Positions 40,463-50,723 of a stretch of DNA of 64,000 nt are shown piece by piece (positions within the stretch are counted from its first letter, which is position 1; each line of letters begins with the position of its first letter). Position numbers and translations under genes: made by a program. The stretch covers positions 186,001 to 250,000 of the forward strand of contig NZ_QLLK01000003.1 of assembly GCF_003259505.1 (NCBI RefSeq). Direction: 5' to 3'. The notes under the pieces are model-generated. The model saw nothing but the letters and a program-made list of their open reading frames with translations, did not search any database and was not told the origin of the DNA. This stretch comes from Algoriphagus yeomjeoni (GTDB lineage: Bacteria; Bacteroidota; Bacteroidia; Cytophagales; Cyclobacteriaceae).

Positions 40463-40612
40463 ATGGATACGCAGGAAAGAACAATTGATTTGTATGAAGT
40501 TGCTGAGATCAAGCTGAGCTACAGTGCAAAGGTAAAAGCCAGTCAAAGACCGAAGGTTGACAGTTCAAGACAGTTGCAAAAAAACCTTTCCAGAGCATCC
40601 GCTGATGCCTGA
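40463..40612 (+). pseudogene. Remnant of a RadC-like (JAB domain) gene, N-terminal fragment
   Basis: A 49-codon frame reads LYEVAEIKLSYSAKVKASQ then RPKVDSSR, which closely matches the N-terminus of the RadC-like JAB-domain proteins carried on Bacteroidota mobile elements. After about codon 36 the match is lost; a +1 shift would read DSCKKTFPEHP, which could continue the family pattern a little. The conserved JAB metal-binding region (HNHPSG) is absent from the following DNA, so this is a truncated, frameshifted remnant. It suggests that a mobile element once occupied this gap. Confidence 0.55.
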
Positions 40613-41216
40613 TTCCTATTACTGTTTCCTTCACATGCCTGGGATAGAACTCCGTTTGAGGCTCTACCTTATCCAAAAGTCAATCCCACTAAAGAATCCC
40701 CATGGGCTGAAAGTGGCGCCAAGTGGCCATTTTAGCCATATGATGTTCTTATTGTCCTGGATACGCTTCTTATGAAGCTCAATGGGTTGGGTGATGGTTT
40801 GGTCATCCCAAGCATTGGTAAAAAACTGGGGCACTATCATTCCGGGAAGACTCACTCTGCATTTGTAGTCAACCGCATTTTTTTTGATGCACCTTGCCTT
40901 GGCTAAAAGAACTTAGTGAGGCCATCGTCAGATTAAAAATGAAGAGATTTTTCGTTGTTTTGTGTGTAAGTAGGACTTGTTACTGTTTCAAAATGATGAG
41001 TCAAATTTGGTTTAAAGAAAGAAGTCAGTCGTTCCAAAAATGTATCTGCGGACCTTTGGATGTGTTTTTGGACTTTTTGGAAATGAGTGCTGAGAAGAAG
41101 TAATTTGATGCGTTTTGCAGCTTCCTTTAAAGAAATCTAGAATATTCTATATTGAAGCCTCCTTTAAATAAAGGAATCCGGGTTTTTGGTTGCAATTACT
41201 TCCAAGAGAGAATGAT
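40613..41216. other. Degenerate gene-poor region before the AraC regulator
   Basis: About 600 bp with short ORFs on both strands (for example 40664-40855 minus and 40894-41103 plus) that show no recognised family, no start signals and frequent stops. Likely debris of the same element as the RadC-like remnant. The right end must hold the promoter of the AraC gene. Confidence 0.45.
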
Positions 41217-42194
41217 ATGGATTTTGTAAGCTCGAGCATTTATCATAAAGCCAAATCCTTGGCTATCAAAGAAGGATTGCCACCGCTACAATTCAGAGAA
41301 AAACATTCGCCCCTTGATTCTCCCTATTTACCCATCGATTTCCTGTATGATATGTACGAATGGGCCATTGAAAATCTTTCCCCGGGATTCAGTGTGCGTC
41401 AGGGAATGCAACTGAATTCCGATGATTACGGTACGCTAGGTCTATCCTGGAAAACCAGCTGGCAGGCACGAGATATATTGGATCGATTGCAGCGTTATAT
41501 GGTCTTGGTCACAGACCAAGGTAGTATTAAGATGAGGGAAGATCATGGACAATCCCAACTTTTCCTTCACCGTCCACCTAATCGAAAGGGTATCGAGATA
41601 GCCAATGAGGTGTCTTTCGTGATGCTCACGGGAATCTTGGAGGAGGTGACTTCTCAAAAAATTCTGCCAGTCCAGGTCGCTTTTCAGCATTCGCATACCT
41701 CCTCTGCCCAATCATTAAAAGAATTTTTCCAATGTCCGATTTCATTTGGTGCTTCCCTTAATATGCTACAATTCCGAACAGAATCCCTTCAAATTCGGAC
41801 AATCAAAGCAGATAAGAGCATCCATCAATTTATTGTGGATCGCCTGGAAGAAGAGAAACAAGGGGTTTTTTCGCAGTCAGATCAGATGCTATATGACATC
41901 AGACAATTGATTACAGAAAGTCTCCCGAGTGGCATCCCAAGTATTATCCAATTAGCAGATCACCTCAATATGAGTGCCCGGACGCTCAAGCGTAGATTGG
42001 CAGAGAAAGAGCTAACCTTTCGGGATCAAATTCAATTGATACAGAAAGAAACTGCACAAGATTTATTGCTGAATTCTCACTTGAGCATTGCAGAAATCGC
42101 CTTTCAGACTGGGTTTTCAGAGCAAAGCGCATTCAACAGGGCTTTTAAAAGGTGGACCCAACTTTCTCCAATGGAGTACAGAAAATCGAAGTAG
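41217..42194 (+). CDS. AraC-family transcriptional regulator
   Basis: I chose ATG 41217, giving about 325 residues; the frame is open to a TTG at 41190. The N-terminal two thirds resemble the arabinose-binding-like domain of the OruR/ArgR-type AraC regulators (GFSVRQGMQLNSDDYGTLGLSWKTSW, then QVAFQHSHTSSAQSLKEFFQCPISFG). The C-terminal 90 residues are the AraC helix-turn-helix pair: IQLADHLNMSARTLKRRLAEK and LSIAEIAFQTGFSEQSAFNRAFKRW. The DUF4386-MDR operon starts 217 bp downstream on the same strand and is the likely target. Confidence 0.88.
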   Translation: MDFVSSSIYHKAKSLAIKEGLPPLQFREKHSPLDSPYLPIDFLYDMYEWAIENLSPGFSVRQGMQLNSDDYGTLGLSWKTSWQARDILDRLQRYMVLVTDQGSIKMREDHGQSQLFLHRPPNRKGIEIANEVSFVMLTGILEEVTSQKILPVQVAFQHSHTSSAQSLKEFFQCPISFGASLNMLQFRTESLQIRTIKADKSIHQFIVDRLEEEKQGVFSQSDQMLYDIRQLITESLPSGIPSIIQLADHLNMSARTLKRRLAEKELTFRDQIQLIQKETAQDLLLNSHLSIAEIAFQTGFSEQSAFNRAFKRWTQLSPMEYRKSK

Positions 42195-42411
42195 CAAAAG
42201 ACATTTGGCCTACATGGTCAAGGAATTGGCCCAAAGTGTCAACTTTACTTTTTCGCGCTGCCCTACCTTTACCTCCATCTATTAATCCTGTCTTGAACAA
42301 GGGAAAACTTCATGTCTTTCCTATCACCGAATTGAAAAATAGGGGCTGAGCCTTCAAGACTGGAATAATTCTTTCCAATTAATAAGAGAATCGTTTGCTA
42401 ACTGTTTTACC

Positions 42412-43125
42412 ATGAAAAATCAAGCTAATCTAAACCAAAGTGCCATATCAATACGGATGATCGGGTTACTCTATGTGCTTGTCATCATCCTCGCAGGTTT
42501 CAGTCAAGGATATGTGAGAGAAGGGATTTTTGTAGAAGGAAATGCGTTGAACTCTGCTGCGAATATTCTCGAAAATGAGGAGCTATTCCGGTTTGGTTTG
42601 ATCACAGACCTTTTGGCTTTTATGTTGGATGCAGTCATTTCGGTGATGTTTTATTTGCTATTAAAGCCTTATGGAAAAACCCTAGCCCTAATTTCCTCTT
42701 CCTTACGGCTTTTAGCCCATCCAGCGATTGGAGCATTCAATCTGCTGAATCACTACTTGGCCCTACATGTGCTGAAAAGTGAGCCACTAAGCCTCTCCTT
42801 TGATCAGGGCCAGATCGAGGCTATGAGTCATCTCTTCCTGGATGCCCACCGCTATGGCTACCTGATCGCAGGAGCCTTTTTCGGGATTCATTGTCTTTTG
42901 CTTGGACTTCAGCTGTTTCAAAGCGGAGCTTTCCCCAAGATTCTTGGAATCTTGATGGGGTTTGCAGGCTTGGGCTACTTGATTGAAACCTTTGGCGACT
43001 TTGCTTTTCCGGGAAATGAGTCTCTGCTTGCCTGGATCGTCGGTATATCTGCTGCCTTGGGTGAAGTTACACTTGCATTTTATTTTCTAATCAAAGGCTC
43101 AAAAATCAAATCCACAAACTTATGA
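42412..43125 (+). CDS. DUF4386 family membrane protein
   Basis: The 237-residue protein has six to seven hydrophobic segments and matches the DUF4386 pattern: an N-terminal RMIGLLYVLVIILAGFSQGYVR, the middle LITDLLAFMLDAVISVMFYLLLKP and SLRLLAHPAIGAFNLL, and the C-terminal AWIVGISAALGEVTLAFYFLIKG. Function of the family is unknown. Its stop codon overlaps the ATG of the downstream MDR oxidoreductase (43122-43125), so the two are translationally coupled. Confidence 0.85.
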   Translation: MKNQANLNQSAISIRMIGLLYVLVIILAGFSQGYVREGIFVEGNALNSAANILENEELFRFGLITDLLAFMLDAVISVMFYLLLKPYGKTLALISSSLRLLAHPAIGAFNLLNHYLALHVLKSEPLSLSFDQGQIEAMSHLFLDAHRYGYLIAGAFFGIHCLLLGLQLFQSGAFPKILGILMGFAGLGYLIETFGDFAFPGNESLLAWIVGISAALGEVTLAFYFLIKGSKIKSTNL

Positions 43126-44078
43126 AAGCAATCATCTATGAAACGTACGGTTCGCCGGAAAACCTTAAACTAAAAGAAGTAAATCGCCCCGAACCCAAGG
43201 CAGATGAGGTCCTAGTTAAAGTGTTGGCTGCTTCAGTCAATCAAGCTGATGGGCATCTTTTGAGCGGAACTCCCTTTCCGGTCCGATTTTCCTCTGGATT
43301 ATTCAGACCTAAACACCAAATTCTCGGGGCGGATATTTCCGGGGTAATTGAACGGGTTGGGAAAGACGTTACGCAGTTTCAGGTAGGTGACCAAATATTC
43401 GGAGACCTTTCGGGCAGTGGATTTGGTGGCTTTGCTGAATATGCGGTAGCGAAGGAAGGTGTATTGGCTAAAAAACCTAAAAATCTAACGTTTGAGGAAG
43501 CTGCAGCAATGCCCATGGCCTCAGTGACTGCATTGCAGGGATTGAGAGACCTGGGAAAAATCAAAAAAGGGGATGAGATCCTTATCAACGGGGCTTCTGG
43601 AGGCGTCGGTAGTTTTGCCATTCAAATCGCCAAGGCTTTGGGGGCAAAAGTCACCGCAGTGTGCAGCAGAAGAAATGCAGATCTAGCCAAAACGCTGGGA
43701 GCCGATGAAGTGATAGATTATGCAGTTCGAAATTTCACCCAAGAAGACAGGAAATTCGATTTGATTTTAGATGGACCTGTCAACCATTCTCTCAATCAGA
43801 TTGAACCGGTTTTGAAAGGTGGCGGTCGCTATGTAGCCTTTGGATTTTCCATGGAGGCACTCATGCTGGGCTCTTGGAAGTCCTACCGTACAGGGAAGAA
43901 ATTCGCCACGCTGATGGCCAAGGTGAAAAAAGACGATTTAGTGCTGCTGGCAACCCTTGCAGATGAGGGAAAGATTTATCCTCCTATCCAGCAAAACTTC
44001 ACGCTAGATGAAGTACCTGAAGCTTTGAGCCTGATGAAAAAGGGAAAAATATCCGGGAAGTTGGTCATTACCATTTAA
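43122..44078 (+). CDS. MDR-family NAD(P)-dependent alcohol dehydrogenase / quinone oxidoreductase-like
   Basis: The 318-residue protein has the medium-chain dehydrogenase/reductase fold: a GroES-like N-terminal domain (ADEVLVKVLAASVNQADGHLL, LGADISGVIERVGKDVTQFQVGDQIFG) and a Rossmann domain with INGASGGVGSFAIQIAKALGAKVTAV. The usual Cys and His ligands for catalytic zinc are missing, which points to the quinone-oxidoreductase-like branch. It probably reduces small quinones or enones, though the substrate is unknown. Its ATG overlaps the DUF4386 stop. Confidence 0.87.
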   Translation: MKAIIYETYGSPENLKLKEVNRPEPKADEVLVKVLAASVNQADGHLLSGTPFPVRFSSGLFRPKHQILGADISGVIERVGKDVTQFQVGDQIFGDLSGSGFGGFAEYAVAKEGVLAKKPKNLTFEEAAAMPMASVTALQGLRDLGKIKKGDEILINGASGGVGSFAIQIAKALGAKVTAVCSRRNADLAKTLGADEVIDYAVRNFTQEDRKFDLILDGPVNHSLNQIEPVLKGGGRYVAFGFSMEALMLGSWKSYRTGKKFATLMAKVKKDDLVLLATLADEGKIYPPIQQNFTLDEVPEALSLMKKGKISGKLVITI

Positions 44079-44115
44079 GGAGACGAATATCTCTAGATGA
44101 AAACCAAAAAGGAAT

Positions 44116-45339
44116 ATGAAGAAGAATATAAAAAGAATAGTAGGGGTCTTGATTTTTGCTCTATTTCAACTCAGTGCACAAGCGCAACTGGCCCAAAAAG
44201 TAGAATTAACGCCTGATAGTCAGCTTTTAGGGCTTGGAAAGCAGTATTTGATTCAGTCCGGACTATTACAAGAACAGCGTCCAATCCTTGTTTCACTACC
44301 TCATGATTATGAAAACAGCGAGACCTCCTATCCGGTCATGTATGTGTTGGATGGGCTGGAAAATATTAAACACACCGTAGGAACTATTGAAATATTAATC
44401 GAATCGGGGCTCATACCTCCTATGATTCTGGTTGGGATTCAGAGTTTGGATAGGAACAGAGACTTGACACCCTCTCAAGCTGGACAAAATGTCTATGGAG
44501 GTACCGGAAATGACGGAATTGCTCAAAGTGGCGGAGCTGGGAAATTTTTGAAGTTTATTAGCCAGGAAGTTTTTCCCTTTGTTGAAAATCATTTCCGTAC
44601 ACATCCTTATCGAATTCTGGAAGGACATTCTTTGGGTGGCTTATTCGGTGTTTATACCCTGATGGAGCAGCCAGATCTTTTCGATGCTTTTATCATTGAG
44701 GCCCCTGCACTCTGGTGGAATGGAGAGGAGATGACTCTAAAAGCTTCCACCTTTTTCGCAGAAAATCAAACCCTGAAGAAGACTGTCTACTTTGGAGTAG
44801 GTGGTGGAGAAGGCTGGGGAATGAAGCAGGAATTGATCAGGTATGTGGATGAGATCAAAAAGAATCAACCAGAAGGGTTCCGTTGGTTTCATGAAGAAGT
44901 GGGCGATGAAGATCATATGGCTTCCCGTCTCTTACTCAATTATCATGGTCTGAAATTTTTATTCTCGGATATGCGTCTCCCGGATAGCCTTCAAACCAAC
45001 TTTTCTGAAGAAGGATTTCTGGTAGGCGAGGAGCAGTTAAAAAGGAAATATGGATCCAAAGCCAAGCGAACGGCCAATGAATACGTGAATATGGCTATGC
45101 AGGAAATCGAAAGGAAAAATGAAGAAGGAGCCATCACAGTCTTAAAAAGAGCGACTCAGGCTTACCCTAACTACCTTGGAATACTGACTTTTCTCGCCAA
45201 AACCTACGAAAGTGTGGGACAAGTCTATCTTGCAATTGAGACCTACAGAAAGGGTATTGAACTATCCCAGCAGTATAAACTGGGTTTAGAAAATGATTTT
45301 TCCCAACAGATTGACCGTTTGAACCATCAACGAAACTGA
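44116..45339 (+). CDS. Exported esterase (alpha/beta hydrolase) with C-terminal TPR
   Basis: The 407-residue protein has a signal peptide (cleaved near SAQAQ, residue 24). A putative esterase domain of the esterase D/enterochelin esterase type follows: YPVMYVLDGLENIKHTVG, and the nucleophile elbow EGHSLGGLFGVYTL near residue 173. A catalytic His candidate lies in VGDEDHMASRL. The last 100 residues form TPR-like helices (AITVLKRATQAYPNYLGILTFLAKTYESVGQ). Close relatives are common in Bacteroidota; the substrate is unknown. The gene follows the MDR gene by 37 bp and is probably in the same operon. Confidence 0.85.
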   Translation: MKKNIKRIVGVLIFALFQLSAQAQLAQKVELTPDSQLLGLGKQYLIQSGLLQEQRPILVSLPHDYENSETSYPVMYVLDGLENIKHTVGTIEILIESGLIPPMILVGIQSLDRNRDLTPSQAGQNVYGGTGNDGIAQSGGAGKFLKFISQEVFPFVENHFRTHPYRILEGHSLGGLFGVYTLMEQPDLFDAFIIEAPALWWNGEEMTLKASTFFAENQTLKKTVYFGVGGGEGWGMKQELIRYVDEIKKNQPEGFRWFHEEVGDEDHMASRLLLNYHGLKFLFSDMRLPDSLQTNFSEEGFLVGEEQLKRKYGSKAKRTANEYVNMAMQEIERKNEEGAITVLKRATQAYPNYLGILTFLAKTYESVGQVYLAIETYRKGIELSQQYKLGLENDFSQQIDRLNHQRN

Positions 45340-45340
45340 A

Positions 45341-45424
45341 ATGAAAAAAGAATTAATAATCGTAGGGATTGGATGCTTGTTTTTAAGTGCATGCAGCTCC
45401 CATTCACAAGAAAGTTTAAAATAG
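45341..45424 (+). CDS. Very short lipoprotein-like ORF (27 residues)
   Basis: The ATG lies one base after the esterase stop. The product is little more than a lipoprotein signal: a basic start, a hydrophobic stretch, the lipobox FLSAC with Cys at residue 18, then ten residues ending ESLK before TAG. It is either a truncated lipoprotein gene or a genuine tiny lipopeptide. The tight spacing to the esterase gene and the perfect lipobox support translation; no longer frame follows it. Confidence 0.4.
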   Translation: MKKELIIVGIGCLFLSACSSHSQESLK

Positions 45425-45559
45425 ACCGCTTTTATTAGAGAAACTCAGATCATTTTTCTTACATTTTTTAGCCAAAAAACTTGGGAAGCTTTATCTTGAA
45501 AATATCTTCAAACATAAATCTAAGCTCCAAAACACGTTTTTGGTGTTTTTTGACTTTGG

Positions 45560-47341
45560 ATGAATCAACACTCCATCGCTGTTCTACCCTTTGACAACCT
45601 CAGTTCAGACCCGGAAAACGAATATTTTTCAGACGGCATGGCTGAGGAAATCATCAATGCCCTCAGCAAAATACAGAGGCTGAAAGTCATCGCACGTACT
45701 TCTTCTTTTGCTTTCAAAGGTCAAAAACTGGATGTACGGATCATCGGAAACAAGCTGGGCGTTTCCTCAGTCATTGAGGGCAGTATCCGAAAAGCGGGCA
45801 ATCGGGTTCGGATTGCAGTCCAACTGATTCGTACCGACAATGGCTTTCATATTTGGTCCGAAACCTTTGACCGCACACTTCAGGATATTTTTGAGCTGCA
45901 GGATGAAATCAGCCTTTTGGTCGCCGACCGAATCCGGGAGAATTTTGGACATATGGAAATCGAAGATAGCTTGGTTTCCACCAAGACGAACAATCCGGAA
46001 GCCTATGACCTGTTTCTGAAAGCCAGCCATCATTTCAAGCGAAAGGACTTAGCCGATGTCAAAGAAGCTTTGGTTTTATATACCAAAGCCACCGAACTGG
46101 ATCCTGGTTTTACCGAAGCTTTTGCTTACATCGGTGAAACCTACCTTCACCATGCAGGCTTCAACCTGATTTCTGCCAAAGAAGGTTTTCAGAAATCCAG
46201 AGAATTTGCTCAAAAAGCTTTGGCGATCAATCCCAAGGACATGCGTGCCCACAAAGTCATGGCTTACGTACATCTATTCCATGACTGGAACTGGGAGGCA
46301 GCCATCGCTTCCTACAATCAGGCCGTAGCAGCTGGATTGAATAATGAGATCGACTTTATCACCAACTACTATATTTTCATCCAAAAGGACTACGACCTGG
46401 CCATAGCTATTGCCAAGGAAAATCAATCTCGCGATCCGCTGCACATCATCAGCTACTGGTGGCTTGGGCTGTGTTATTACCTCTCAGGGCGATTTGAAGA
46501 TGCCCTTTTTGCCTTTGAAGAATGTCTTTGTGTCAAGCCTAATTTCAGCGAGGCTCTTCGTTGGAAAGGTTTGGTTCTAGGCTATTTGGGAAGATTTGAC
46601 GAGGCATTCCAGACGCTTGATAGAGCTGTCGAACTAACCAATGGAGAGGGCTTGGTCAAGCTGGATCTCATGACGGTTAAAGTGCTCAGTGGAGACACGG
46701 AGGGTGTACTCGAAGAGCTGGAAAATAGTCACTACATCGATCCCTGTGACCCGGCAGCATTGTACAGCCTGATGAACAGGCCGAATGAGGCCGTCCATTT
46801 CCTCCAAAAAGGACTGGAGGAAAAGTCCAGCATGATGGTCAGCCTGAAATATTGGTGGGTTTGGGACAATATTCGTGAGCATGAGGGGTTTCAGGAAATC
46901 TATGAACAAATGAATTTCCAAGATCACAAAGCACATCGGCACCATCCTTCTAATCAACAACTAATCATCGCTCAATCCAGCCAACTAGCCGAGGAGGATA
47001 GCGAGCAGTTCCTGCAAATCCTGCGTGAAAAAATGGCTCTGGAAGGAGTGGTCACGGACACCAATTTAACTTTACGCTCTCTGGCGGAGCAAATCGACCT
47101 CCATCCCAACAAGCTTTCCTGGCTGATTAATATGAAACTGGGCCAAAACTTCAATGACTATATCAATTCCCATCGCTTGGGAATATTCCAGCGAAAGGCA
47201 ACTGATAAAGCAAATAGTCATATTACACTTTTGGGCTTGGCTTATGAAAGCGGATTTACATCCAAATCCGTGTTCAATGATTTCTTCAAAAAATCTACCG
47301 GGCTCACTCCCAAGGCTTGGGTAAAATCTCATCGAAACTGA
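45560..47341 (+). CDS. FlgO/TolB-like domain, TPR and AraC-type DNA-binding regulator
   Basis: The 593-residue protein combines three parts. Residues 1-130 form a FlgO/TolB-like domain (SIAVLPFDNLSSDPENEYFSDG, VIEGSIRKAGNRVRIAVQLI) of the type found in adenylate-cyclase-like and regulator proteins. Residues about 145-450 hold TPR repeats (for example LDPGFTEAFAYIGETYLHHAG). The C-terminus is an AraC-type helix-turn-helix (LRSLAEQIDLHPNKLSWLINMKLGQNFNDYINSHR and LLGLAYESGFTSKSVFNDFFKKSTGLTPKAW). There is no signal peptide or membrane segment, so it is a cytoplasmic regulator, possibly tuned by protein-protein contacts. The three genes downstream share a common upstream element and are likely targets. 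Confidence 0.88.
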   Translation: MNQHSIAVLPFDNLSSDPENEYFSDGMAEEIINALSKIQRLKVIARTSSFAFKGQKLDVRIIGNKLGVSSVIEGSIRKAGNRVRIAVQLIRTDNGFHIWSETFDRTLQDIFELQDEISLLVADRIRENFGHMEIEDSLVSTKTNNPEAYDLFLKASHHFKRKDLADVKEALVLYTKATELDPGFTEAFAYIGETYLHHAGFNLISAKEGFQKSREFAQKALAINPKDMRAHKVMAYVHLFHDWNWEAAIASYNQAVAAGLNNEIDFITNYYIFIQKDYDLAIAIAKENQSRDPLHIISYWWLGLCYYLSGRFEDALFAFEECLCVKPNFSEALRWKGLVLGYLGRFDEAFQTLDRAVELTNGEGLVKLDLMTVKVLSGDTEGVLEELENSHYIDPCDPAALYSLMNRPNEAVHFLQKGLEEKSSMMVSLKYWWVWDNIREHEGFQEIYEQMNFQDHKAHRHHPSNQQLIIAQSSQLAEEDSEQFLQILREKMALEGVVTDTNLTLRSLAEQIDLHPNKLSWLINMKLGQNFNDYINSHRLGIFQRKATDKANSHITLLGLAYESGFTSKSVFNDFFKKSTGLTPKAWVKSHRN

Positions 47342-47542
47342 TTTTAATGTCTGATAAAGTGGGGATAGCACTTTTCAAAGACTCGTAATTTTGGAACAGA
47401 ACACTACTTCAATATCCCTAAATAGGGTGGTTGATTGGATTCTTGATGCTTTTATCAGCGGTTCGGATAATTTTTGTAAAAAACCAGATTGAGCACTATC
47501 CATAATCGGAGTCGGAATGACAGAAAAGATTCAGTGATCAGA

Positions 47543-47594
47543 AAAAGTCCGAAATCATAAAGTCGGACGAATGCCGATGCATTTTCCTTCATCT
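47543..47594 (+). promoter_or_regulatory. Conserved upstream element, copy C (before the Vat-like gene)
   Basis: This stretch reads AAAAGTCCG...TCATAA...GACGA.TG.CC and contains the inverted repeat GTCCG (47547-47551)/CGGAC (47564-47568). It aligns with the two longer elements at 48374 and 48719 in the blocks AAAAGTCCG, TCATAA and GACGA. Likely a regulator site. Confidence 0.5.
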
Positions 47595-47622
47595 TTGATT
47601 TATTCAATCAAAAAATAGAATC

Positions 47623-48243
47623 ATGACAGGACCAGATAAAAACCAAGCCTTTCCATTAGCAGGCTATGACCGACTTTGCTTTCTAAAAAATGTAATCAAA
47701 AACCCTCAGATCCAAGTAGGCGACTATACCTATTACGATGATTTTGAGGACGTTCACAACTTTGAGAAAAATGTCAAATATCTCTTCGATTTTGTGGGGG
47801 ATCGATTGATTATCGGGAAGTTTTGTATGATCGCCTCGGATGTCACCTTCATCATGAACGGAGCCAATCACTTATCCAAATCCCTTTCAGCTTACCCTTT
47901 TGCCATATTTGGTAAAGGTTGGGGAAAAGCCATGGAAGGGAAAAGCTATCCCAATAAAGGAGATACCATCATCGGAAATGATGTGTGGATCGGCTACGGA
48001 GCGACCATCATGCCGGGAGTCCAGATCGGTGATGGAGCCGTCATTGCGAGCAAGTCAGTGGTCACCAAAAATGTAGAGCCGTACACCATCGTGGGTGGAA
48101 ACCCTGCCCAAGAAATCAGAAAACGCTTTTCTGATGAAAAAATCGAGCAGCTACTGAAGCTGAAATGGTGGAACTGGCCTATCGAGCGAATCAGCCAAAA
48201 TGTTCAAAATCTAGCCGGGGATCAATTAGAGGCTATTGTTTGA
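47623..48243 (+). CDS. Vat-like xenobiotic O-acetyltransferase (left-handed beta-helix)
   Basis: The 206-residue protein has the hexapeptide-repeat acetyltransferase fold and closely follows the streptogramin A acetyltransferase (Vat) pattern: [31 protein letters not shown] with the expected catalytic His, [45 protein letters not shown] and [13 protein letters not shown] followed by KWWNWP. Vat enzymes inactivate streptogramin A with acetyl-CoA. Whether this one confers resistance or acetylates another hydroxyl compound is unknown. It is followed by a strong terminator and preceded by copy C of the shared element. Confidence 0.85.
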
Positions 48244-48277
48244 GTGAATTAGTCCGTATTCCCTAGCTACTCCAATT

Positions 48278-48316
48278 GCCAAAAGGAATCAACTTTCCTT
48301 TTGGCATTTCTTTTTT
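48278..48316 (+). terminator. Rho-independent terminator after the Vat-like gene
   Basis: GCCAAAAGGAA (48278-48288) pairs with TTCCTTTTGGC (48295-48305), a perfect 11-bp stem with a 6-nt loop, followed by ATTTCTTTTTT. Confidence 0.85.
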
Positions 48317-48373
48317 ATCGTCAGAGAGTTTTAACTCCAGCTGGACAAGCTCCATTTTTTTTTCTACCCAGCC

Positions 48374-48453
48374 AAAAGTCCGGGATTTCACCGAAAGGTC
48401 CCGATTCATAATTCAAGACGACTGGCCTGCCTTTACGCCCCAATTTTGTCCCA
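48374..48453 (+). promoter_or_regulatory. Conserved 80-bp upstream element, copy A
   Basis: By eye, 72 of 80 positions are identical to copy B (48719-48798). Both end 31-44 bp before a start codon. The core contains AAAAGTCCGGGATTTCACC, TTCATAATTCAAGACGACTGG and CAATTTTGTCCCA. Each copy precedes its own gene, so this is probably a shared promoter/operator. Confidence 0.75.
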
Positions 48454-48484
48454 GTCATTAATCAAAAACCTAATACATACAAAG

Positions 48485-48700
48485 ATGAAAAATAAAGCAA
48501 TCACACTAGGAACAGCCATTGGGGTAGCCATCGGGACACTCATCGGAGTCGCCATTGGTACTGCCATCGGAATCATTGCACTCGGATTATTGGGAGTGGA
48601 CTTTGACAATCAAATCACTTTCTGGGTCAGCACCGGAATGGCCGTAGGCGGAGGAATCAGCCTGGTTAATTTCATGCTCAAATCGGCCAAGGAAGACTAA
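48485..48700 (+). CDS. Small glycine-zipper membrane protein
   Basis: I chose ATG 48485 (71 residues) because the longer frame to 48446 would run into copy A. The product has two hydrophobic segments; the first is a striking glycine zipper (ITLGTAIGVAIGTLIGVAIG, then TAIGIIALGLLG), the second around ITFWVSTGMAVGGGISLVNF. Such repeats pack helices tightly in membranes. Function is unknown; candidates include a small envelope-stress or membrane-associated protein. It is flanked on both sides by copies of the conserved element. Confidence 0.7.
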   Translation: MKNKAITLGTAIGVAIGTLIGVAIGTAIGIIALGLLGVDFDNQITFWVSTGMAVGGGISLVNFMLKSAKED

Positions 48701-48718
48701 TTCCACCCCATTTAGGTA

Positions 48719-48798
48719 AAAAGTCCGGGATTTCACCAAAACGTCCCAATTCATAATTCAAGACGACTGGCCTGGCAATACCGCCCAATTTTGTCCCA
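48719..48798 (+). promoter_or_regulatory. Conserved 80-bp upstream element, copy B
   Basis: Second long copy of the element at 48374, 72 of 80 positions identical by eye. It lies 44 bp before the start of the outer-membrane barrel gene. See copy A for the shared core. Confidence 0.75.
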
Positions 48799-48842
48799 TC
48801 AATTTGAAATAAAAACAAGTCAAACTTAAACAACACAAAAAA

Positions 48843-49403
48843 ATGAAAAAGCTAATCTTTATCTGCATCATCGGTCTGATCACTACCTTGAATATTCAGG
48901 CCCAAACTGAAAAACCTTTCCGCAAAGGCTTTACCGCCGGGGCCTCTATTGGAGCGGGCGTATTGCACTTCACTGATGGAATGAGTGAAAAAGCCACTCG
49001 AGGTGGCATCTCCCTTCCCAATCTGAAAATGGGTTGGTTTGTATCTCCCCGCACAGCCATCTATGTCAATACTGTCGGACAAATCTATGAGTCCGAGGGC
49101 GTAGACCGGAGCTTTGAAGGCATCATCCCTTCCATTCAATACTGGGCTACTGACAAATGGTGGGTCAGCGGAGGATACGGTGCATCCCTAGACATCAGAG
49201 CGCTCTATGAATCCAAGGCTGATTCCCGAAAAAACGATTGGGGTAAAGGAGTTTTGATTTCCACTGGCTACGAAGTTCTTCAGCGTGAAAAATGGGCTTT
49301 AGACATCCAAAGCCGATTGTACATGGGCCGAGTTACTCGAAATGAAGGAGGTAACCTAGACGCCACCAATTTCTCCATCGGAGTGGGAATTACACTCTTT
49401 TAA
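48843..49403 (+). CDS. Outer-membrane beta-barrel protein (small porin-like)
   Basis: The 186-residue protein has a signal peptide (MKKLIFICIIGLITTLNIQAQ, cleaved after residue 21). The mature part consists of short amphipathic beta strands typical of eight-stranded barrels: FRKGFTAGASIGAGVLHF, NLKMGWFVSPRTAIYVNTVG, WWVSGGYGASLDI and a final strand FSIGVGITLF ending in Phe. A porin or envelope-stability role is inferred from the fold only. It is preceded by copy B of the shared upstream element. Confidence 0.8.
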   Translation: MKKLIFICIIGLITTLNIQAQTEKPFRKGFTAGASIGAGVLHFTDGMSEKATRGGISLPNLKMGWFVSPRTAIYVNTVGQIYESEGVDRSFEGIIPSIQYWATDKWWVSGGYGASLDIRALYESKADSRKNDWGKGVLISTGYEVLQREKWALDIQSRLYMGRVTRNEGGNLDATNFSIGVGITLF

Positions 49404-49500
49404 TTCAGAAGACCATTTCAATAGAAACCAGTAAGGAAAAGTCATGATGAATTCACTGGCTTGCCTTGCTGGATTTCTTCACTTATTCAATCCCATAAAA

Positions 49501-49791
49501 ATGAAAACAAAAACAGGATACCACGTCATTTTGATCTTGTTTTTCTTTCACTTGCTAGCTTCTGAAGCTATTCCATTATTAAAACAAGAACTGGAAGAAG
49601 TATGGAAGAAAACTGAAAGATTAGAAGCAATGGATGAGAATATAATTTCTTTCGAAATAAAGGTTTTTAACTTAAAAAAAGCTTGGATAATTGAGGGAAT
49701 TAGAAATAACAATGATACCCTAAATCAATCAGAGGCATATATAAGCCAATTGTCAACTAATCAAACTCAATCAGAATGCAAGGAAAAATAA
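49501..49791 (+). CDS. Small exported hypothetical protein
   Basis: From ATG 49501 the product is 96 residues; an in-frame ATG at 49444 would add 19. The chosen start gives a signal peptide (MKTKTGYHVILILFFFHLLAS). The mature part is Glu/Lys-rich and helical (LLKQELEEVWKKTERLEAMDE), then turns Asn/Gln/Ser-rich at the C-terminus. No family is recognised. Its 3' end overlaps the SDR gene by 16 bp. Confidence 0.5.
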   Translation: MKTKTGYHVILILFFFHLLASEAIPLLKQELEEVWKKTERLEAMDENIISFEIKVFNLKKAWIIEGIRNNNDTLNQSEAYISQLSTNQTQSECKEK

Positions 49792-50645
49792 TGCTGGCAG
49801 GAGCCACCGGTTATTTGGGAGGCTTTATTGCCAAAGAACTCAAGCGACAGAGACGTGATTTTCTTGCCTTTGGAAGAAGCGAAGAAAAACTTAGAAGCCT
49901 TGGTCTGAATAAAAATCAATGGCAATTGGTCGATGTGACGAAGTTGGCGTCATTTCCAAAAATCGAGGAACCAATCGATACGATCATTTCCACAGTTGGC
50001 ATCACCCGGCAAAAAGACGGACTAAGCTACATGGACGTGGATTATCAAGCCAATCTAAATCTCCTGGAATTTGCCATGAGGCATCGGGTCAGAAAATTTA
50101 TCTATGTATCTGTACTGAACGGATCCCAAATGCGGCACTTGAAAATCACCGCTGCCAAAGAGCGTTTTGTGGATGCCTTAAAAGAATCCGGATTAGCCTA
50201 TAGCATTATTCGGCCCAATGGTTTTTTCTCTGACATGAAAGACTTTTTGTCCATGGCCAAATCAGGCCGCGTCTACCTTTTTGGAGACGGAGAATACAAA
50301 CTTAACCCTATTCACGGCATGGATCTGGCTCAGGTAGTCATTGATAGTGTCACTTCTCCCCAGCCGGAGGTAGAAGTGGGAGGACCTGATATTTTGACTC
50401 AAAATGAAATCGGAAGACTGGCTCTTAAATCCATAGGGAAAGAAGTCAAAATCGTTCATTTGCCGGATTGGATGCGAAGGGGAGTTCTTGGAATGATGAG
50501 GACTTTCACCAATCCACAGACCTATGGACCGATAGAGTTCTTTCTTACCATGATGGCCCGGAATAATATTGCCCCACGGCATGGAGTGCATCGCTTGGAA
50601 ACCTTTTTTCGGGAGGAAAGTGATCGGTTAAGAGAGTCAGAATAA
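49776..50645 (+). CDS. NAD(P)H-binding SDR-type oxidoreductase (NmrA-like)
   Basis: The 289-residue protein has an extended Rossmann domain: IMLAGATGYLGGFIAKELKRQ, a basic residue in LAFGRSEEKL suggesting NADP preference, and DTIISTVGITRQKDGLSYMDVDYQANLNLLEFA. The catalytic Tyr-x-x-x-Lys is not clear (YVSVLNGSQMRHLKITAAK), so it may be an atypical, possibly regulatory or binding member. Then come SIIRPNGFFSDM and a C-terminal cap. Substrate unknown. It overlaps the preceding small ORF and converges with the LytTR operon. Confidence 0.85.
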   Translation: MQGKIMLAGATGYLGGFIAKELKRQRRDFLAFGRSEEKLRSLGLNKNQWQLVDVTKLASFPKIEEPIDTIISTVGITRQKDGLSYMDVDYQANLNLLEFAMRHRVRKFIYVSVLNGSQMRHLKITAAKERFVDALKESGLAYSIIRPNGFFSDMKDFLSMAKSGRVYLFGDGEYKLNPIHGMDLAQVVIDSVTSPQPEVEVGGPDILTQNEIGRLALKSIGKEVKIVHLPDWMRRGVLGMMRTFTNPQTYGPIEFFLTMMARNNIAPRHGVHRLETFFREESDRLRESE

Positions 50646-50723
50646 CCTCTTCCAATCCTTATTGATAAAGTGGTTTATTCTTAAACAAATTGGTTTTTAA
50701 CGTAAAAAATTGACAATAAAAAT

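Follow-up and report, generated by a model that had tools for sequence, protein, structure and literature searches.

Why should three genes that follow an AraC-type regulator each be preceded by a version of one and the same DNA element? This question is raised by a locus of the marine bacterium Algoriphagus yeomjeoni (assembly GCF_003259505.1), located in a stretch of 64,000 nucleotides of contig NZ_QLLK01000003.1 (positions 186,001 to 250,000). This whole stretch is referred to below as the window, and coordinates without further label are positions within it. The regulator, a protein of 593 amino acids (aa; 45560-47341, +), combines an alpha/beta N-terminal domain and a superhelix of tetratricopeptide repeats (TPRs) with a C-terminal AraC-type helix-turn-helix (HTH; approximately residues 478-593), and the genes in question code for a Vat-like acetyltransferase, a glycine-zipper protein and a probable outer-membrane barrel. 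In a preliminary description of the locus, these genes were proposed to be switched on by binding of the regulator to the element. Comparative genomics bears out the link between regulator and element, while the binding and the switching on are steps that we infer; taken together, we consider it highly likely that the element is an operator through which the regulator activates the genes that follow.

Two of the elements, A (48374-48453) and B (48719-48798), form an 80-nt direct repeat, and the alignment agrees with the earlier count by eye of 72 identical positions out of 80 (90%). The third, C, had been taken for a diverged copy. It has the same core, and the inverted repeat GTCCG/CGGAC is indeed present in it (47547-47551 and 47564-47568), but it is not a full copy, as it consists of the core alone and lacks the upstream box AAAAGTCCGGGATTTCA of A and B. 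The core of C, GTCCGAAATCATAAAGTCGGACGA at 47547-47570 (+), which runs from GTCC to GACGA, aligns with the latter half of each full copy, at 48398-48421 (+) in A and at 48743-48766 (+) in B. In all three a TTTG, part of a -7-like box, lies exactly 23 nt past the core (47594-47597 in C, 48445-48448 in A and 48790-48793 in B). The upstream boxes of A (48374-48390, +) and B (48719-48735, +) fall within the 80-nt repeat, and that of A repeats, in direct orientation and 20 nt further upstream, the first half of the core.

When element A was used as a query against the whole genome (4.97 Mb), the only matches at E<=1e-3 were A and B. A first short pattern, AAGTCCGNNNTCATAA, was uninformative at 3 mismatches, with control matches outnumbering real ones. 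We then used a core pattern derived from relatives, GTCC..AATNAT.......GACGA-(23)-TTTG, which recovers C with 0 mismatches and A and B with 1 each; five further genomic places have 3 mismatches each (the backwards control gave 4). The finding of many copies unrelated to the regulator, which had been named earlier as a ground for abandoning the idea, did not materialize: besides A, B and C no place in the genome matches the core pattern with fewer than 3 mismatches, and a pattern for the wider family, at up to 3 mismatches, finds no other place in it.

The anatomy of the element was delineated in ten near loci, in which a pattern permitting other core lengths detected all but one of 33 sites, the last being added later. 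The element precedes the vat-like gene in 10 of these loci, the glycine-zipper gene in 9, the barrel gene in 9 and a divergently transcribed gene in 5, where this was looked at. The core spans 24 nt in each of the 32 sites read, and TTTG follows 23 nt past it in 30 of them, the two remaining ones being vat-like sites with TTTA. The core has the form of an imperfect inverted repeat of 22 bp, GTYC-N-GAWTT-NN-AA...NC-N-GRAC, with GA after it. A box resembling its first half recurs 20 nt upstream in the sites of the glycine-zipper, barrel and divergent genes and not in the vat-like sites, in which the inverted repeat is more complete than in the sites with an upstream box. The core and its spacing to the -7-like box are better conserved than their flanks. 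The -7-like box itself reads CAnnTTTG, with C rather than T as its first base; the -7 consensus of Bacteroides is given as TAnnTTTG (PMC4747536).

Across genomes, the element tends to accompany the regulator. Orthologs of the regulator were found in 7 of 59 genus genomes at 1e-100 (its own included) and in 25 of the 334 family genomes searched at 1e-120; among the best 80 of 211 matches to the regulator, the named relatives include Algoriphagus marincola, A. boseongensis, A. formosus, A. iocasae, Lunatimonas salinarum and Cyclobacterium lianum. Of the 334 genomes, 14 contain the strict pattern (with 1 match for the backwards control), namely all ten genomes having an ortholog of at least 80% identity versus four of the other 324. 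Those ten genomes account for 29 of the 33 strict matches, each within 6.4 kb of the regulator. As for the other four, in G347 the site lies 3.7 kb downstream of that genome's own ortholog, in G088 it lies 33 nt behind a TPR-AraC paralog, in G254 it is found where an AraC gene with a different sensor part ends, and in G175 it is near neither of these kinds of gene. In locus L077 (1501-1551 of that locus) the AraC gene whose end the strict pattern overlaps has an N-terminal part that differs from the TPR sensor and, by eye, looks membrane-bound.

The association extends well beyond the close relatives. Among wider relatives (the best 80 of 211 matches to the regulator), a matrix that includes the -7-like box detected 83 sites in 47 of 69 distant loci at a threshold of 17.5, the best score in reversed sequences being 17.0, and the spacing between core and -7-like box was identical in all 83 sites, even though the matrix tolerated a shift by one base in either direction for a slight loss of score. 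In a fairer test we used a matrix of the core only, trained on the near sites alone, which at a threshold of 14 gave 85 matches in 44 of 58 AraC-bearing loci versus 9 in reversed sequences; TTTG stands at offset 23 in 59 of these 85, against a mean of 0.41 at other offsets. Twelve more distant whole genomes hold 21 distinct sites (of 22 rows, one was omitted because it read one palindrome again from the reverse strand). For 19 of these sites a homologue bearing the AraC domain lies no more than 6 kb upstream on the same strand, often with its stop codon 15-20 nt before the site. The 6-kb regions downstream of such homologues comprise 0.4% of the bases, which translates to a binomial P of 2.6e-43, a value that exaggerates the significance, as several of the genomes are closely related. 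In the same genomes, homologues that match only up to before the AraC domain have a site within 6 kb in just 2 of 19 cases, and both of these sites share a contig with an AraC-bearing homologue and lie close to it. In the 11 fetched loci whose homologue lacks the AraC part (one of them cut by a contig end), scores reach 10.6 at most. Because the loci of AraC-less homologues have a higher G+C content, we prefer the control within the same genomes.

The element, its fixed geometry, its conservation and its co-occurrence with the regulator are thus direct observations, and the link between the two is strongly supported by co-occurrence, co-localization and geometry in the sequences compared. Very probably the element is the operator of this regulator and the regulon is a local one. 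Several observations weigh against this picture. With 2 mismatches allowed, a site within 6 kb is missing for seven of the 21 AraC-bearing homologues in the 12 genomes, of which G353 and G354 lack any match. Two loci with orthologs of 62-64% identity (L043 and L044) show no site scoring above 9, and L109 shows none. Conversely, two Arenibacter sites (G356 and G357) have no AraC-bearing homologue on their contig. Furthermore, the distant loci were chosen for holding the regulator and several are closely related, so that their counts are not independent. Finally, activation is preferred to repression on the basis of position alone.

In the regulator, Pfam detects TPRs and PF12833 (HTH_18; 42.5 bits versus a cut-off of 33.6, residues 508-589), with PF00165 at 23.7, under its cut-off of 26.6. 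The AlphaFold model (mean pLDDT 87.7) consists of the alpha/beta domain, the TPR superhelix and the AraC HTH, and shows no lone long helix between domains. No second copy of the regulator was found in the genome at E<=1e-8. The FlgO label attached to the protein in the preliminary description found no support, there being no FlgO entry among the 16 Pfam families at E<=0.01. When the N-terminal domain was compared by sequence with solved structures, no match had an E-value below 0.16. In Foldseek, the top ranks for the sensor part are TPR proteins, and rank 8 is the periplasmic domain of CadC (3ly9; E 7.0e-07, rmsd 6.4 over 375 columns), whose TM-score of 0.61 by target length is the highest among the first ten. 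A second structure aligner returned other TPR proteins, with CadC absent among the 50 matches listed. The modelled sensor may well be CadC-like.

We propose that the alpha/beta domain and the TPR superhelix together form a cytoplasmic sensor for a signal that is probably a xenobiotic or a stress arising from one. The regulator would bind the core, which ends 23 nt upstream of the TTTG in the -7-like box, and bring RNA polymerase to a local set of detoxification and envelope genes. Because the site lies just upstream of the -7-like box, and because that box is imperfect, the operator is probably used for activation; a CAnnTTTG box is what might be expected of a promoter needing help at its -33 position. 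The position of the core, from about -30 upstream of the -7-like box, would also permit repression, and a regulator that binds and represses, or does both depending on a ligand, is an unlikely alternative. Activation by AraC-type proteins mostly proceeds from sites that adjoin or overlap the -35/-33 region. This usual position, the imperfect box and the fact that no site overlaps the -7-like box all argue against repression.

Other explanations leave the geometry in place and question the binder. It is improbable that a broad class of Bacteroidota AraC HTH domains uses the core as a common operator, with a regulon not private to this protein. The AraC gene of G254, whose end overlaps the strict pattern, fits such a reading in that it matches the regulator over residues 426-590 only, whereas the lack of any other core in the window's genome, by either pattern, speaks against it. 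Another AraC protein might also be the true binder, chiefly the one of 334 aa encoded at 41190-42194, given that its gene belongs to this region both in the window and in L011-L013. This we consider very unlikely: the gene is present in only 4 of 59 genus genomes at 1e-60, regulator and element occur without it in G033 and G029, it was unseen at 1e-20 in the fetched stretch of five of the ten near loci (L010, L014, L038, L039 and L041), and in G047 its local copy has stops. Two further readings do away with the operator altogether. An inverted repeat upstream of genes could be an RNA element such as an attenuator or riboswitch in the transcript, but the repeat lies upstream of the TTTG box at a fixed distance, so that it would not be transcribed from there, and Rfam has no match in 40500-50700, which makes this extremely unlikely. 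The 90% likeness of A and B could point to a dispersed repeat or a recent duplication without function. A dispersed repeat was rejected, there being two copies genome-wide and three cores with fewer than 3 mismatches, and a functionless duplication is hard to reconcile with the retention of A and B at orthologous places in 8 other near loci, or with a core and -7 spacing that outlast their flanks; the chance of either is close to negligible. The reading that we prefer thus remains an operator bound by the TPR-AraC regulator itself.

The earlier gene calls beside the elements held up, namely a regulator with TPRs and HTH_18, a Vat-like hexapeptide transferase, a glycine-rich protein and a weakly supported outer-membrane barrel. 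Directly behind the regulator lies the C-terminal end of a major facilitator superfamily (MFS) transporter gene (47344-47517, +; tblastn 40% over 58 aa, with in-frame stops), which in relatives occupies the same place and is intact in 8 of the 9 other near loci and shorter in L040. It is followed by the gene for the Vat-like xenobiotic O-acetyltransferase (206 aa; 47623-48243, +), which matches NCBIfam NF000311 over nearly its full length at 287.2 bits, below the NCBI cut-off of 300, and VatA/VatD-type chains in the PDB at E ~1e-62. The small glycine-rich (glycine-zipper) protein (71 aa; 48485-48700, +) has no match in an NCBIfam scan and is 72-92% conserved in 8 other near loci. The secreted protein of 186 aa (48843-49403, +), probably a small outer-membrane barrel, scores 19.7 bits with PF13505, short of the cut-off of 28.7, and is 66-93% conserved in 8 other near loci. 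Beyond it lie a shortened remnant of a beta-lactamase-fold hydrolase gene (49501-49791, +; 29% over 62 aa to an L010 protein, PF00144), intact in some relatives and also reduced in L012 and L038, and the gene of an NmrA-like NAD(P)-binding protein (49776-50645, +), a conserved neighbour for which no element of its own was found. With variations, the near loci share the order regulator, MFS transporter, Vat-like, glycine-zipper, barrel, hydrolase and NmrA-like. In Cyclobacterium lianum (L095) the glycine-zipper and barrel genes have kept their elements (15122 and 15466) although, compared with other near loci, they are displaced downstream by about 6 kb. The Lunatimonas ortholog has 91% identity to the regulator of the window (from the L093/L097 comparison) and the one in Algoriphagus sp. 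PAP.12 only 80%, which suggests that the cluster was transferred horizontally.

A probable fourth element, decayed and overlooked in the preliminary description, was found on the reverse strand (41029-41053), with a core of 25 nt and 23 nt to a TTTG (the complement of 41002-41005). It stands before a pseudogene of the divergent secreted gene (40569-40952, -; tblastn 46% over 130 aa, with stops), which in relatives carries an element. By its position weight matrix score of 12.2 alone it is not above chance, as scores of 12.8 and 14.0 occur inside coding sequence in L012 and L013; we retain it because relatives have an intact element at the same place. The putative regulon of the window is therefore partly decayed, with the MFS, hydrolase and divergent genes surviving as predicted remnants. 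The second AraC-type gene, that of 334 aa, adjoins a DUF4386 gene and a quinone reductase-like gene.

To see what the wider family might control, we considered the 78 genes downstream of distant sites (for 5 of the 83 sites no reading frame was picked), of which 53 were scanned, near-duplicates being omitted by eye. The commonest class was that of zinc-type dehydrogenases/quinone reductase-like proteins (21 of 53), and 9 of 53 had the beta-lactamase fold. A role in detoxification would be a fair guess for the family. A zinc-type dehydrogenase/quinone reductase-like gene is also present in the window (43122-44078), with no element of its own found. Here drug modification may be inferred from the Vat-like enzyme, and an envelope and drug-modification response, as proposed earlier, is plausible because the Vat-like enzyme is accompanied by the MFS remnant, the beta-lactamase-fold hydrolase remnant and the predicted outer-membrane protein.

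In a sister clade of distant homologues the reading frame extends upstream by 182-233 residues (17 of 23 examined), and in all four extensions scanned (L139, L143, L132 and L117) this region matches the nucleotidyl cyclase family PF00211 above its cut-off. Such cyclase-TPR-AraC fusions occur in relatives from the Saprospiraceae and Flavobacteriaceae, and a cyclase-like stretch is present in 41 of 77 loci, in some of them separate from the regulator. We also noted that in 34 of 36 rows D/E or T at residue 574 of the HTH goes along with C or T, respectively, at position 3 of the operator, after 7 of 43 rows with no site or with another residue were dropped; the tree provides 3 independent contrasts, too few for a test, and the covariation is suggestive but not significant. 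A wider scenario that would unite these observations is possible though rather doubtful: the window's regulator might be a stripped member of a Bacteroidota family with a cyclase, a CadC-like TPR sensor and an AraC activator in one polypeptide, in which the full-length clade would couple cyclic-nucleotide synthesis to transcription of its own downstream operon, the window's clade would have turned the operator system on drug-modifying genes, and residue 574 would read operator position 3.

To our knowledge, the operators of Bacteroidota regulators are rarely known. Here sequences from many genera reveal a regulator subfamily together with its probable operator and the constant spacing to the promoter, so that prediction of targets and swaps of specificity become directly testable. 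The window further offers a natural case of regulon decay, in which targets were lost and an operator was left. If the Vat-like enzyme does inactivate antibiotics, the locus would also show how marine bacteria control such genes.

In literature searches, judged by their result listings, no paper on this TPR-AraC type of regulator came up, and an AraC HTH output on a cyclase-TPR protein was not found described. The nearest known systems resemble it in part. Vat streptogramin A acetyltransferases are matched by the putative target enzyme nearly throughout NF000311 and by Vat chains in the PDB, and differ in that it stays below the NCBI cut-off. Class III nucleotidyl cyclases with TPR modules are akin to the sister-clade regulators with PF00211 in front, whereas the window's regulator has no cyclase domain. 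The ToxR-like regulators of the CadC/HilA type may share the sensor fold, going by the Foldseek match, one absent among the second aligner's 50 rows, and the NCBIfam model for HilA/EilA reaches 47.5 bits over residues 3-295, far under its cut-off of 589. These regulators carry an N-terminal winged helix, unlike the C-terminal AraC-type HTH seen here; an OmpR-type N-terminal winged helix was not found, as Pfam gives only TPR-type and AraC HTH families and the model starts with the alpha/beta domain. Local regulators of the AraC/XylS family share the C-terminal HTH_18 above the Pfam cut-off and sites by the promoters of adjacent genes, and the direct half-site 20 nt upstream, about two helical turns, resembles the I1/I2 arrangement of AraC. 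In contrast to them, the regulator matches no AraC-type ligand-binding domain, having the alpha/beta domain and TPR superhelix as its predicted sensor, and a conserved inverted-repeat core is common to its whole subfamily. In this comparison of sequences, the regulator stands out as a probable AraC-type activator that joins a TPR sensor to an operator whose constant geometry is shared across its family.

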